The notes beneath the pieces were generated by a model. The model ran no database searches. It worked only from the letters and a program-made list of their open reading frames with translations, and had not been told where the DNA came from. Below, one piece after another: positions 37,118 through 41,442 of a DNA stretch of 64,000 bases (its first letter is position 1; the number at the start of each line of letters is the position of its first letter). The position numbers were made by a program, and so were the translations under genes. The DNA is from Lichenibacterium dinghuense (GTDB lineage Bacteria > Pseudomonadota > Alphaproteobacteria > Rhizobiales > Beijerinckiaceae). The stretch is taken from assembly GCF_021730615.1 (NCBI RefSeq), contig NZ_JAJLMN010000001.1, positions 4,227,501 to 4,291,500 of the forward strand, given 5' to 3'.

Positions 37118-37194
37118 GGCTCCGTAGCTCAGTTGGATAGAGCAGCCGCCTTCTAAGCGGCAGGTCGAAGGTTCGAGCCCTTCCGGAGTCGCCA
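37118..37194 (+). tRNA. tRNA-Arg (anticodon TCT)
   Basis: A 77-base cloverleaf with encoded CCA. The acceptor GGCTCCG pairs with CGGAGTC (one G-T pair), discriminator G. The anticodon loop CTTCTAAG gives TCT, reading AGA/AGG. It lies about 1.6 kb from a gutted arginyl-tRNA synthetase gene. Confidence 0.97.
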
Positions 37195-37970: not shown

Positions 37971-38265
37971 CGTGTCCTCTTGCAATGCGCTGTGATCCCC
38001 TCTCCTAGCATGGAGACCGGGAGTGAACCAAGGGGTTGCGATACAGATGGGCAAGAAATCGTTTTCTTCAACCGCCTTCAGCCGTTCATTGACCGGGAAA
38101 CAGGCTCCTCCACGGTTTTGAGGATCCCAGAGCACGTCGACATTCAGAAAAGACAGGCCGCTTCGGCGACAATATTGCGGCAAAAGTTATCAAAAGAGCC
38201 GTGGGTCGTCGAACGCCCCCGCGGCATGCACCGTTCCTGGTCATGGCCGGCCGCGGGGTGAACCC
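37971..38265. other. AT-richer intergenic region upstream of the XRE regulator
   Basis: This 295-base gap lies between the regulator start and the 3' end of erpA. It is clearly less GC-rich than its flanks (for example GACAATATTGCGGCAAAAG near 38168-38186). It probably holds the regulator promoter. No gene or firm promoter hexamers were found. Confidence 0.5.
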
Positions 38266-38610
38266 TCAAAGCGCGAAGCTCGTTCCGCATCCGCAGGACG
38301 CGGTCGCGTTCGGATTGTGGATCTTGAACGATTGTCCGATGAGGTCGTCGACGAAATCGATCTCCGAGCCCTTCATATATTCGATGGAGACAGGGTCGAT
38401 CAGCACGGTCGCGCCGTCGCGCTCCAGGACGAGATCGTCGCCGCCGGCCGACCCGACGATCGTGAAGGAGTACTGGAAGCCGGAGCAGCCGCCGCCGTCC
38501 ACGGCGACACGCAACGCCGATCCCGGCGCCTCGCTCGACAACACGCGCTTCACGCGCGCCGCCGCCGAGGCCGAGAGGGTGACGGGCGACGGGGTCTCGA
38601 TCAGGCTCAT
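38266..38610 (-). CDS. erpA: Iron-sulfur cluster insertion protein ErpA (HesB/IscA type)
   Basis: A-type carrier that delivers Fe-S clusters to apoproteins. It has 114 residues. The three ligand cysteines are C42 (DGGGCSGFQYSF) and C106/C108 (SCGCGTSF) in the normal C-x(63)-C-x-C layout. ATG 38610. In Rhizobiales erpA is usually divergent from dgt and argS; here it is divergent from the argS-derived gene with 142 bases between starts, and dgt is missing. Confidence 0.93.
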   Translation of the reverse strand: MSLIETPSPVTLSASAAARVKRVLSSEAPGSALRVAVDGGGCSGFQYSFTIVGSAGGDDLVLERDGATVLIDPVSIEYMKGSEIDFVDDLIGQSFKIHNPNATASCGCGTSFAL

Positions 38611-38752
38611 GACGGCATCCTTCGGCGAGCTTGCGGGCGTTGCGCCCTCGCTCGGCACTGTCCGGAACGGACTCGAATCCAAGCTAGTGAAGGGCCGGAG
38701 GTCCTGCAATGGTGGCCCCGGGCCGCGCGGCGGTGCGGCGAACGGGGACAGA

Positions 38753-39802
38753 ATGGACATCTTCGCCCTCGTGCGGCGGCGCACGCTCGACGTCCTCGCG
38801 GACCTGGTCGACTGCGGTGAGCTTCCGCGAAATTTCGACCTCGGGCGTGTCGCGGTCGCTGTGCCGCGTGCGGGGACACCGGGCGACGTCGTCGTCGACG
38901 CGGGCTCCGTCCACGTGCCGCCGCGCGGGGTGGTCGACGGGCTCGGCGCTGCGCCCGACGTGGCTGCGGTCGCCGCGGTCGGCGGCGGGCGATTCGCGGT
39001 CACGCTCGGCCCGGCCGCGGTCCTGGGCGCCGTGTCTGCGGTGCTGGACGGCCGGTGTCCGCTCCCGATGGCTCCCGGCGGGGCGATGTCGCCGGGCGGT
39101 CGCCCGCAGCCGGCGAGCGGCGCGGCCTCGCTGGCGGAGCTCCGGGCCGAGGTCCTGGCCGACGTGCTGGCCGGGCTGGCCACGGCGGTCGACCTCGCGC
39201 CGCCGATCGCCGTCCCGCCGCGCTCGGTGCCCGTGGTCCTGAGGGGGGCGGTCGCCGGCGCGGGGTCGACGCGGCCCGACGACGTCCTGGCGCTGATCGG
39301 GGCGGACGCCTTCCGGTTCGCGGTCGCGTCCTGCCGGCCGCATGCGGCCCTGCACCTCGACCTCGACGTGCTCGGCGACCGGTGCCGCGCGGACCCGAGC
39401 TTCTGGGTCCCCTACGCCCACACGCGCGCGCGCTCGATGCTCCGGGAGGCGGCTGCGGCCCCGGTCGGCCTCGGCCCGGGCGTGCTCGCCGCCGCCGACC
39501 TCGCGGACCTGACCGATGGCGGCGAACTGGCCCTGGCGCGCCTCGTCGCACGCCACGCGCGCCTGGTCGCCGATGCGGCCGCGGCCGCCGCGCCGCAGAG
39601 GATCGCCGCCCACCTCCGGCAGGTCGCGGACGCGGTCCATCATCAATGGAACCGAAGCAAAGATCAGCCACAATTACGCTTTGTTAATGAAGAACGGAGA
39701 GATTTGACCAAAGCTCGGCTCGGTCTGGTGACCGCGTCCGCCCTCGTGTTGCGATCCGGTCTCGGCCTCCTCGGTCTTTCGGCTCCCGACGAGATGCGCT
39801 GA
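38753..39802 (+). CDS. Arginyl-tRNA synthetase-derived protein lacking the catalytic core
   Basis: An open frame of 349 residues, against about 585 for ArgRS. Residues 1-100 follow the ArgRS N-terminal domain in order: MDIFALVRRRTLDVL, VAVPRAGTPGDVVVDAG, APDVAAVAAVGGGRFAVTLG, AVLDG. Residues 172-349 follow the ArgRS C-terminal half: PDDVLALIGADAFRFAV, DPSFWVPYAHTRARSMLREA, DGGELALARLVARHARLV, then WNRSKDQPQLRFVNEERRDL and LGLLGLSAPDEMR to the end. Between them, residues 101-165 are a Pro/Gly/Ala-rich linker where some 240 residues with HIGH, the Rossmann fold and KMSKS should be. It cannot activate arginine. The position after erpA and before the SPOR/nagZ pair is that of argS. It is either a decaying gene or a repurposed tRNA-binding protein. 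Confidence 0.85.
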   Translation: MDIFALVRRRTLDVLADLVDCGELPRNFDLGRVAVAVPRAGTPGDVVVDAGSVHVPPRGVVDGLGAAPDVAAVAAVGGGRFAVTLGPAAVLGAVSAVLDGRCPLPMAPGGAMSPGGRPQPASGAASLAELRAEVLADVLAGLATAVDLAPPIAVPPRSVPVVLRGAVAGAGSTRPDDVLALIGADAFRFAVASCRPHAALHLDLDVLGDRCRADPSFWVPYAHTRARSMLREAAAAPVGLGPGVLAAADLADLTDGGELALARLVARHARLVADAAAAAAPQRIAAHLRQVADAVHHQWNRSKDQPQLRFVNEERRDLTKARLGLVTASALVLRSGLGLLGLSAPDEMR

Positions 39803-39912
39803 TCGGTGAGCCTGCCGCTCGACCGGCGGTATTCCGCCGCATTCGAGGCGGGAAAGGGCGGCACCAGTCCAGTCTGCCAGGCTGCCGGGGCTCTGTTCTG
39901 CGAGGTTGTTCG

Positions 39913-41442
39913 ATGAGTGAAGCCGCGAGATCGCGCCGGGACGATGCCCGCTACGAGCCTCAGGTGGATGTCCCCGCGCGCGGTGCGACCCCCGCTGCGG
40001 ACCCGCTGGCGGAACTCGCCCGCCTGGTCGGCCAGGACGATCCGTTCCGCGGCATGTTCCGGCCCGGTGCCGCTCAGGCCCGCGCCCCGGCTCCCGAGCC
40101 CGCGGGCGGCCGCGACGAGCGCGGATCCCGCTACCCCCGCGACGCTTCCCACCAGCCCGTCACCGCGCCGCAGCCCGGCATCGCCGACCCCGAGGATCCG
40201 CACGGTTCCGAGGCCCACGGCTGGCACGACGACTACGGCGAGGCCGGAGACGGCGAGCACGGGCACCAGCAGCACTACGCGGAGGACGCGGCCTACGCGG
40301 AGGCTCACGGCCACCACGACGCGGGCTACGACGAGCACTATTACGAGGCCGAGCAGGCCGAATATTACGACGAGGCCGGCTTGGCCGACGGGCAGCTCGC
40401 GGTCGACGCCGCGGCCGCGGCGACGCTGCCGGACATGTGGGCCCGTCAGGGCGACGAGCGCGGCGCGGCCGCCGAGGTCGACCACGCCGCGGCGCCGACC
40501 GGGTTCGATCCGGACCGGCGCTCGTCGGCCCGCCGTCCCCTGGCCGTGCTGGCCGCCGTCCTGGTGCTGACGGGTGGCGGGCTCGCGGCGAGCTTCCTCG
40601 TCAAGGGGCCGTCGACGCCCGGCGCCGCGGTGGCGGGCTCGGGCCGCACCGCGCCCACCATCATGGCCGCCACCGGCCCGACCAAGCTCAAGGTCGACGA
40701 CCCGGGCGCGACCGCGCCGGAGGATCAGGACGCCGCGCTCCTGAACAAGGGCACCGTGTCGACCGGCCCGGTCAAGATCGTGTCGAGCCAGGAGCAGCCG
40801 GCCGACCTCGGACAACTGCCGAAGACGTCCGACCTCGCCGACGGCGCCCGGCCGCTGCCGCCGCCGTCCCCGAGCCCCTTCCCGGAGCCCAAGAAGGTGA
40901 AGACCTTCGTGGTCCACCCGGACGGCACCATGCTGTCCGCCGACGGCATCCCGTCGCCGGCGGGCGCCGTGCCCGACGCGACGCCGCGGGCGGCCAACCG
41001 CGGCGCCACCACGCCCAACGCCGCCACGACGCCGAAGACCGCCGCCGCGCCCGACGCGATCGCGGCCCTCGCGACGCCGGCCGACGCCGACGCCGTCGGC
41101 GCGACGCCGTCCAAGCCGGCGCGCCAGCCGCCCTCGCCGGGCGTCAGGGTGGCCTCGGCCAAGCCCAACGACACCGCCGAGGCGCCCGCCGCCGCGGGCG
41201 GCAGCTTCGGCGTGCAACTCGCCTCCTCGCCGGTCGAGGCGGACGCCAACGCGGCCTTCGCCAAGCTGAAGAAGAAGTACCCGGCCCAGCTCGGCTCCCT
41301 CACGGCCTCGGTCCACAAGGCCGAGACCGGCGACAAGCCCGTGTACCGCGTGCGGGTCGGCAGCATGAGCCAGGAGGAGGCCAAGGCGCTCTGCACGCAG
41401 CTCCAGGGTGCCGGCGGATCCTGCTTCGTGGTGCACAACTGA
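39913..41442 (+). CDS. SPOR domain-containing membrane protein
   Basis: A septal/peptidoglycan-binding protein of 509 residues. The cytoplasmic part includes a striking segment, residues 97-157, with ten His and eight Tyr among acidic residues. One membrane helix follows at about 207-230, then a long Pro/Ala/Thr-rich periplasmic linker, and a SPOR domain at about 430-509 (GGSFGVQLASSPVEADANAA ... VYRVRVGSMSQEEAKALCTQ). SPOR domains bind denuded glycan at division sites. nagZ follows with a CTGA overlap, so glycan binding and muropeptide recycling are coupled. Both genes keep their usual place beside argS. Confidence 0.92.
   Translation: MSEAARSRRDDARYEPQVDVPARGATPAADPLAELARLVGQDDPFRGMFRPGAAQARAPAPEPAGGRDERGSRYPRDASHQPVTAPQPGIADPEDPHGSEAHGWHDDYGEAGDGEHGHQQHYAEDAAYAEAHGHHDAGYDEHYYEAEQAEYYDEAGLADGQLAVDAAAAATLPDMWARQGDERGAAAEVDHAAAPTGFDPDRRSSARRPLAVLAAVLVLTGGGLAASFLVKGPSTPGAAVAGSGRTAPTIMAATGPTKLKVDDPGATAPEDQDAALLNKGTVSTGPVKIVSSQEQPADLGQLPKTSDLADGARPLPPPSPSPFPEPKKVKTFVVHPDGTMLSADGIPSPAGAVPDATPRAANRGATTPNAATTPKTAAAPDAIAALATPADADAVGATPSKPARQPPSPGVRVASAKPNDTAEAPAAAGGSFGVQLASSPVEADANAAFAKLKKKYPAQLGSLTASVHKAETGDKPVYRVRVGSMSQEEAKALCTQLQGAGGSCFVVHN

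Follow-up and report, generated by a model that had tools for sequence, protein, structure and literature searches.

Proteins that carry the anticodon-binding part of arginyl-tRNA synthetase (ArgRS) without its catalytic core are already known as a kind, from DALRD3 and from the NrtL family. The study of DALRD3 (PMC7237682) describes a vertebrate protein with a DALR domain of the ArgRS type and no recognisable catalytic motif, which binds arginine tRNAs and acts as the partner of METTL2 in m3C formation; whether it originated from an ArgRS gene or by domain fusion is left undecided in that paper. For bacteria, NCBIfam holds the model NF045898, 'ArgS-related anticodon-binding protein NrtL'. Searches of the open-licence PMC literature listed no paper that visibly describes such a protein from bacteria, be it as a core-less ArgRS or under the name NrtL; one listed paper, on snake gut microbes (PMC13322667), contains the phrase 'DALR anticodon-binding domain-containing'. 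A first-pass annotation of the DNA studied here had stated that it knew of no described family of core-less ArgRS, and in view of NrtL and of DALRD3 that statement was mistaken. What the present locus offers is an unusually clear record of how such a protein originates. The native ArgRS of close relatives shares with it the N-terminal domain, the DALR domain, an embedded DNA element and, in three congeners, the locus, and differs from it in that the catalytic core is complete, HIGH and KMSKS included.

The window is a stretch of 64,000 nucleotides from the genome of Lichenibacterium dinghuense (G000), which was compared with five congeners (G001 to G005). The ATG frame of interest translates into 349 residues with no internal stop. 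It stays open upstream as far as GTG 38201 (533 aa), which means little in such GC-rich DNA, and homology begins at ATG 38753. In Pfam searches of the protein, DALR_1 (residues 220-348, E 1e-18, 67.6 bits against a cut-off of 22.3) was the only match above cut-off; PF00750 and any other catalytic domain were absent, and PF03485 was below significance in G000 and significant in G001 and G002. We also built a profile from 39 native full-length relatives, namely 36 of the 38 family loci with a complete frame together with G003 to G005. This profile gave two alignments, one of 17 bits between residues 1-54 and the N-terminus of ArgRS and one of 171 bits between residues 177-349 and its C-terminal half, with no match in between; as with Pfam, the signal of the N-terminal domain was weak in G000 and clear in G001 and G002. 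The first-pass annotation had divided the frame into an ArgRS N-terminal domain and a post-KMSKS/DALR half, and both searches bear this out.

It had also proposed that the core was replaced by a 65-residue Pro/Gly/Ala linker. The loss is real, as HIGH, KMSKS and PF00750 are all gone while the DALR anticodon-binding domain of a catalytic ArgRS is present, but the description as a linker is incomplete: in our reading of the alignments residues 126-145, SLAELRAEVLADVLAGLATA, occupy the place of the former HIGH helix. This remnant starts with SLAE, and the KMSKS positions, which are lost in G000, G001 and G002 alike, read AGSTR in the protein of the window. The remnant is obvious in G002, which has NLDHLRAVVVGDALGRLLAGTGH where G003 has HVGHGRGAVFGDALANLLAFAGH; the profile itself aligns this stretch of G002, in which HIGH is erased. 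An AlphaFold2 model of the protein (6-row alignment) was poor, with a pLDDT of 46; it builds the remnant as a helix, with a pLDDT of just 34-41.

Table 1. Features of the core-less ArgRS locus, in positions of the window.
Feature	Position	Strand	Basis
erpA-like gene of the HesB/IscA type, conserved neighbour on the left	38266..38610	-	name from our reading of the sequence
Core-less ArgRS, 349 aa	38753..39799, stop 39800-39802	+	translation; Pfam DALR_1 without PF00750; orthologues at the same site in G001 and G002
N-terminal (PF03485-like) domain, residues 1-98, weakly conserved in G000	38753..39046	+	alignment, own-family profile
HIGH-helix remnant, residues 126-145, HIGH motif gone	39128..39187	+	our reading of the alignment; model helix 124-145
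Post-KMSKS segment and DALR anticodon-binding domain, residues 175-349	39275..39799	+	Pfam, own-family profile
Element conserved at the DNA level within the coding sequence, with its core TTACGCTTTGTTAA at 39674-39687	39659..39709	+	codon usage, alignments
SPOR-domain-like protein gene, conserved right neighbour, then nagZ-like gene	39913..41442	+	names from our reading of the sequence

The core-less layout is found at one site, between the erpA-like and SPOR-like genes, in three of the six congeneric genomes (G000, 349 aa; G001, 357 aa; G002, 416 aa), hereafter the trio, whereas G003, G004 and G005 carry there a full native argS, which is their sole argS. The first-pass annotation had raised the possibility of an assembly error at a place where sister genomes have a full argS; the same core-less form in two other assemblies, those of two of the five congeners, rules such an artefact out. 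Of 298 family genomes sampled, 290 matched the query and 8 did not, and among the matches listed there was no further core-less frame beyond the trio; four other short frames among them were either cut by contig ends (three) or a frameshifted second copy (one).

A functional ArgRS encoded elsewhere, perhaps acquired by transfer, had been expected from the first reading, and the genome contains one. The complete ArgRS of G000 lies at G000:C1:2934970-2936694 and is the sole PF00750 match of that genome. PF00750 likewise occurs once in each genome of the trio, in a frame of 602-617 aa away from the core-less gene, whereas in G003 to G005 it occurs in the native argS alone and there is no second ArgRS; among the six congeners the second enzyme is thus confined to those with the core-less gene. 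Its best PDB matches are 6ao8 and 4oby, the Neisseria and E. coli enzymes, its closest relatives in the class are 40-50% identical, and it shares only ~27% identity with the native type. It is of a different type than the native enzyme, as expected from transfer. The second ArgRS is 85% identical between G000 and G001 and 76% between G000 and G002, compared with 84% and 75% for nagZ, and the three copies form one clade in the tree (support 100/99). As the second ArgRS has diverged as much as nagZ and forms a single clade, its acquisition, and with it the replacement, would predate the split of the trio, so that a single acquisition is indicated.

Whether the core-less gene is decaying in frame or kept had been posed as alternatives; it looks kept and not freshly broken, but under weak selection. 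No stop occurs in 1122 codons across the three frames and there are no frameshifts, and for each of the three pairs the in-frame reading outscores both shifted frames in the N-domain, the linker and the DALR part, though narrowly in the linker. Pairwise omega by codon likelihood is 0.14 for G000-G001, 0.24 for G000-G002 and 0.41 for G001-G002, and omega of 1 is rejected for each (2dlnL 88, 55 and 23, respectively), with dS of 1.6-3.1 being saturated. These values are not close to the dN/dS near 1 that, together with stops, the first-pass annotation had associated with a plain pseudogene, but they are relaxed compared with those of the intact argS of G003 to G005 (0.055-0.071). The dN of the core-less gene (0.43, 0.60 and 0.64 for G000-G001, G000-G002 and G001-G002) is 4-5 times that of nagZ in the same pairs (0.08, 0.15 and 0.16), which indicates that selection is weak; the SPOR gene has a dN of 0.20 for G000-G001. 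A branch model also rejected omega of 1 in the core-less clade (2dlnL 149) and gave no significant difference in omega between core-less and intact branches, although saturation and implausible branch lengths make its omega values unsafe, and regional pairwise omegas were useless as dS was unbounded.

The most robust of the selection tests is that of codon position. Between G000 and G001, differences at positions 1, 2 and 3 number 36, 34 and 61 in 115 DALR codons and 37, 37 and 53 in 96 N-domain codons. Neutral simulation, with 150 runs under each of 12 settings, never produced so large a third-position excess in either region. The missing stops are less telling: neutral simulations leave all three genes without a stop with P of 0.01-0.19 for the DALR part and 0.11-0.54 for the N-domain, so that for the N-domain alone their absence would be unsurprising under neutrality. 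The pairs with G002 come nearest to equal change at the codon positions, with DALR second- against third-position change of 0.50 against 0.56 and 0.45 against 0.52, close to neutral. Of the residues invariant in the 39 relatives, G000, G001 and G002 keep 25, 25 and 23 of 49 in the DALR part before the tail, and 14, 14 and 13 of 16 in the tail. We read these data as weak but real purifying selection on the core-less protein, with the G002 pairs near neutral in places.

The explanation that we favour, with a probability of roughly 0.58, is that a native ArgRS gene was replaced, lost its core in frame and has been kept as a tRNA-Arg-binding core-less protein. The ancestor of G000, G001 and G002 would have gained the second, E. 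coli-like ArgRS, upon which the native gene would have become dispensable for charging; an in-frame loss would then have removed most of its Rossmann core, from the HIGH helix to the KMSKS loop, and the product would since have been kept under weak purifying selection. If expressed, the protein would most likely fold as an N-domain, a helix/loop joint and a DALR helical bundle, and would most likely bind tRNA-Arg at the anticodon arm but not charge it. Binding of tRNA-Arg is the likely role by analogy with DALRD3, the published precedent, and the protein might act as a tRNA-Arg adaptor, chaperone or sensor, much as DALRD3 serves a methyltransferase in vertebrates. The two have in common a DALR domain of the ArgRS type and the lack of a recognisable catalytic motif; they differ in that DALRD3 is a vertebrate protein with METTL2 as its partner.

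The 3' end of the gene carries a further feature, additional to what the first-pass annotation had observed, since the DNA around codons 303-314 is conserved beyond the protein level. Not one of the 36 bases 39659-39694 differs between G000, G001, G002 and the intact G003, although the encoded proteins share 36-51% identity over their aligned parts. The Leu of LRF is encoded by TTA in 25 of 32 family genes (32 of 44 loci could be anchored, 12 being dropped because the anchoring motif was unmatched), whereas elsewhere in these genes TTA makes up 1% of Leu codons, and across the family loci excess codon sharing extends over most, though not all, of ~16 codons. A 24-mer of the element is unique in the G000 genome within 3 mismatches. 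Among 121 genomes of the order, we counted 29 with an 18-mer of the element at up to 2 mismatches and 7 with a reversed control, and in the seven of those 29 in which argS had been located the 18-mer lay inside argS in five (G006, G013, G026, G036, G037) and outside in two (G027, G046). Within the trio, the last 53 codons change little at third positions (0.17-0.25), in contrast to the N-domain (0.50-0.59) and the remaining DALR codons (0.52-0.58). The stretch between the gene and the SPOR start showed by eye no comparable conservation in 12 loci, and we suggest that the element may serve to regulate the SPOR-nagZ genes that follow. As for its nature, an RNA element was rejected, with Rfam giving no hit in 38000-41000 at E values up to 5 and folding of 39630-39810 no better than that of shuffles (z 0.2), as was a CtrA-like site, since the spacing TTAA-N7-TTAA does not fit.

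These observations lend themselves to another explanation, in which the protein is useless and the gene a slowly decaying relic whose last ~50 codons hold a cis-acting DNA element for SPOR-nagZ, the open frame upstream being tolerated or retained against transcriptional polarity. The quiet third positions of the tail, the bases shared with an intact gene, the lack of conservation before the SPOR start and the high dN are all as it would have them. The element could account for the kept 3' end, yet not for selection upstream of it, where the relic should show equal change at the three codon positions and G000-G001 does not; neither would a relic be expected to share its choice of retained residues with NrtL, as is seen below. 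We consider it unlikely, though by no means far-fetched. A still less probable case is that of an ordinary young pseudogene, formed by chance in-frame loss and open because GC-rich frames seldom hold stops. The GC content of 75%, the plentiful long meaningless frames of the window and the raised substitution rate speak for it, but the form is common to three species that have diverged at nagZ by ~1 to 2.8 synonymous changes per site, and in neutral simulation three stop-free DALR parts had a probability of 0.01-0.19 and the codon-position pattern was never reached.

For comparison with NrtL, a scan of genome contigs gave at least five Streptomyces loci, and the five translations are also core-less ArgRS, with PYEVRAEVLADVLAR in place of the HIGH helix. 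Three of them, submitted to NCBIfam, all matched NF045898 with 440-465 bits, whereas G000, G001 and G002 score 82, 118 and 93 bits, below the cut-off of 340. G000 nevertheless aligns with the NrtL model as one stretch (profile 18-326/327), and among the matches listed from 385 genomes of the class it alone does so end to end, the remainder covering the profile in part and being mostly full-length frames. The core-less protein of G000 and NrtL share the N-domain, a HIGH-helix remnant without HIGH, the DALR domain and a size of ~330-375 aa. All five Streptomyces genomes have exactly one PF00750 match, away from the NrtL locus; this full ArgRS is 36-37% identical to the second ArgRS of the trio, with which it shares a broad type, and matches the native type more weakly. 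In two loci (L047, L048) NrtL stands upstream of a lysA-like gene, and argS-lysA is the native actinobacterial gene order, so that NrtL would sit in the native place; the neighbours in the window are instead erpA-like and SPOR-like. NrtL also looks more tightly conserved, with third-position change of 0.36-0.39 against 0.11-0.16 at the first and second positions in pairs with L044.

The residues retained by the two groups overlap. In the family, 70 post-KMSKS positions show conservation of 95% or more. NrtL retains 28 of these and the trio (at least two of three) 42, among them Y461, A462, H463 and R465, and 25 of the 28 are common to both (hypergeometric P 3e-5). When all three of the trio are required, 20 positions are shared (P 5e-4), 13 before the tail and 7 in the tail that bears the DNA element. 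The most constrained ArgRS sites tend to be shared anyway, and the test is uncorrected for actinobacterial native ArgRS. In a tree of the DALR domain the trio groups together (89/88) and NrtL apart (100/99), the two forming a trifurcation with native ArgRS. The score far below the cut-off and the different locus point to an independent origin by the same route, and by locus, similarity and shared DNA element the trio and NrtL do look independent. Horizontal transfer of a ready-made NrtL gene, which the end-to-end alignment, the 82 bits against 66 for the argS model TIGR00456 and the trifurcation would permit, is very improbable, as the trio occupies the native erpA/SPOR site, its DALR half is 48-51% identical to the native ArgRS of congeners against 36-38% to NrtL, and both the DNA element and the block WNRxKDQPQLRFVNEE are common to the trio and intact relatives and absent from the NrtL sequences compared.

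The kept native gene would then encode a core-less ArgRS like NrtL and DALRD3 that is probably functional and apparently of independent origin. A broader proposal, which we advance tentatively at somewhat under even odds, is that bacteria have turned a core-deleted ArgRS into a tRNA-Arg-binding protein on two or more occasions: an E. coli-like ArgRS would take over charging, the old Rossmann core would be lost, and the same anticodon-reading residues would be kept in a DALRD3-like adaptor or sensor. If the parallel with Streptomyces in core loss and in many of the same DALR residues is true, NrtL becomes testable from a second angle and a route appears by which non-charging tRNA-binding proteins like DALRD3 can arise. 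Within one genus, an essential enzyme seems to be caught between replacement and reuse, being intact in G003 to G005, partly eroded in G002 and core-less in G000 and G001, and the DNA element embedded in the gene offers a lead of its own that would be easy to test.

Several minor observations accompany these results. In L045, L047 and L048 the stretch of NrtL after the HIGH-helix remnant varies in length through His-Asp-rich repeats. A tRNA-Arg(TCT) gene at 37118-37194 (+) and a tRNA-Pro(TGG) gene precede the core-less argS by 1.6-2.1 kb; they are nearby in G001 too, and as they are absent from the compared stretches of G002 to G005 their proximity is probably due to chance. The start codon of G001 at the position matching ATG 38753 (L005 2568) is TTG, a hint of lower expression. 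Elsewhere in the family, L107 (G202:C2:594500-600500) is a frameshifted argS copy whose HIGH part is read in another frame than its KMSKS/DALR part; the genome has a further argS frame, of 604 aa, and the frameshifted copy may represent an early stage of decay.
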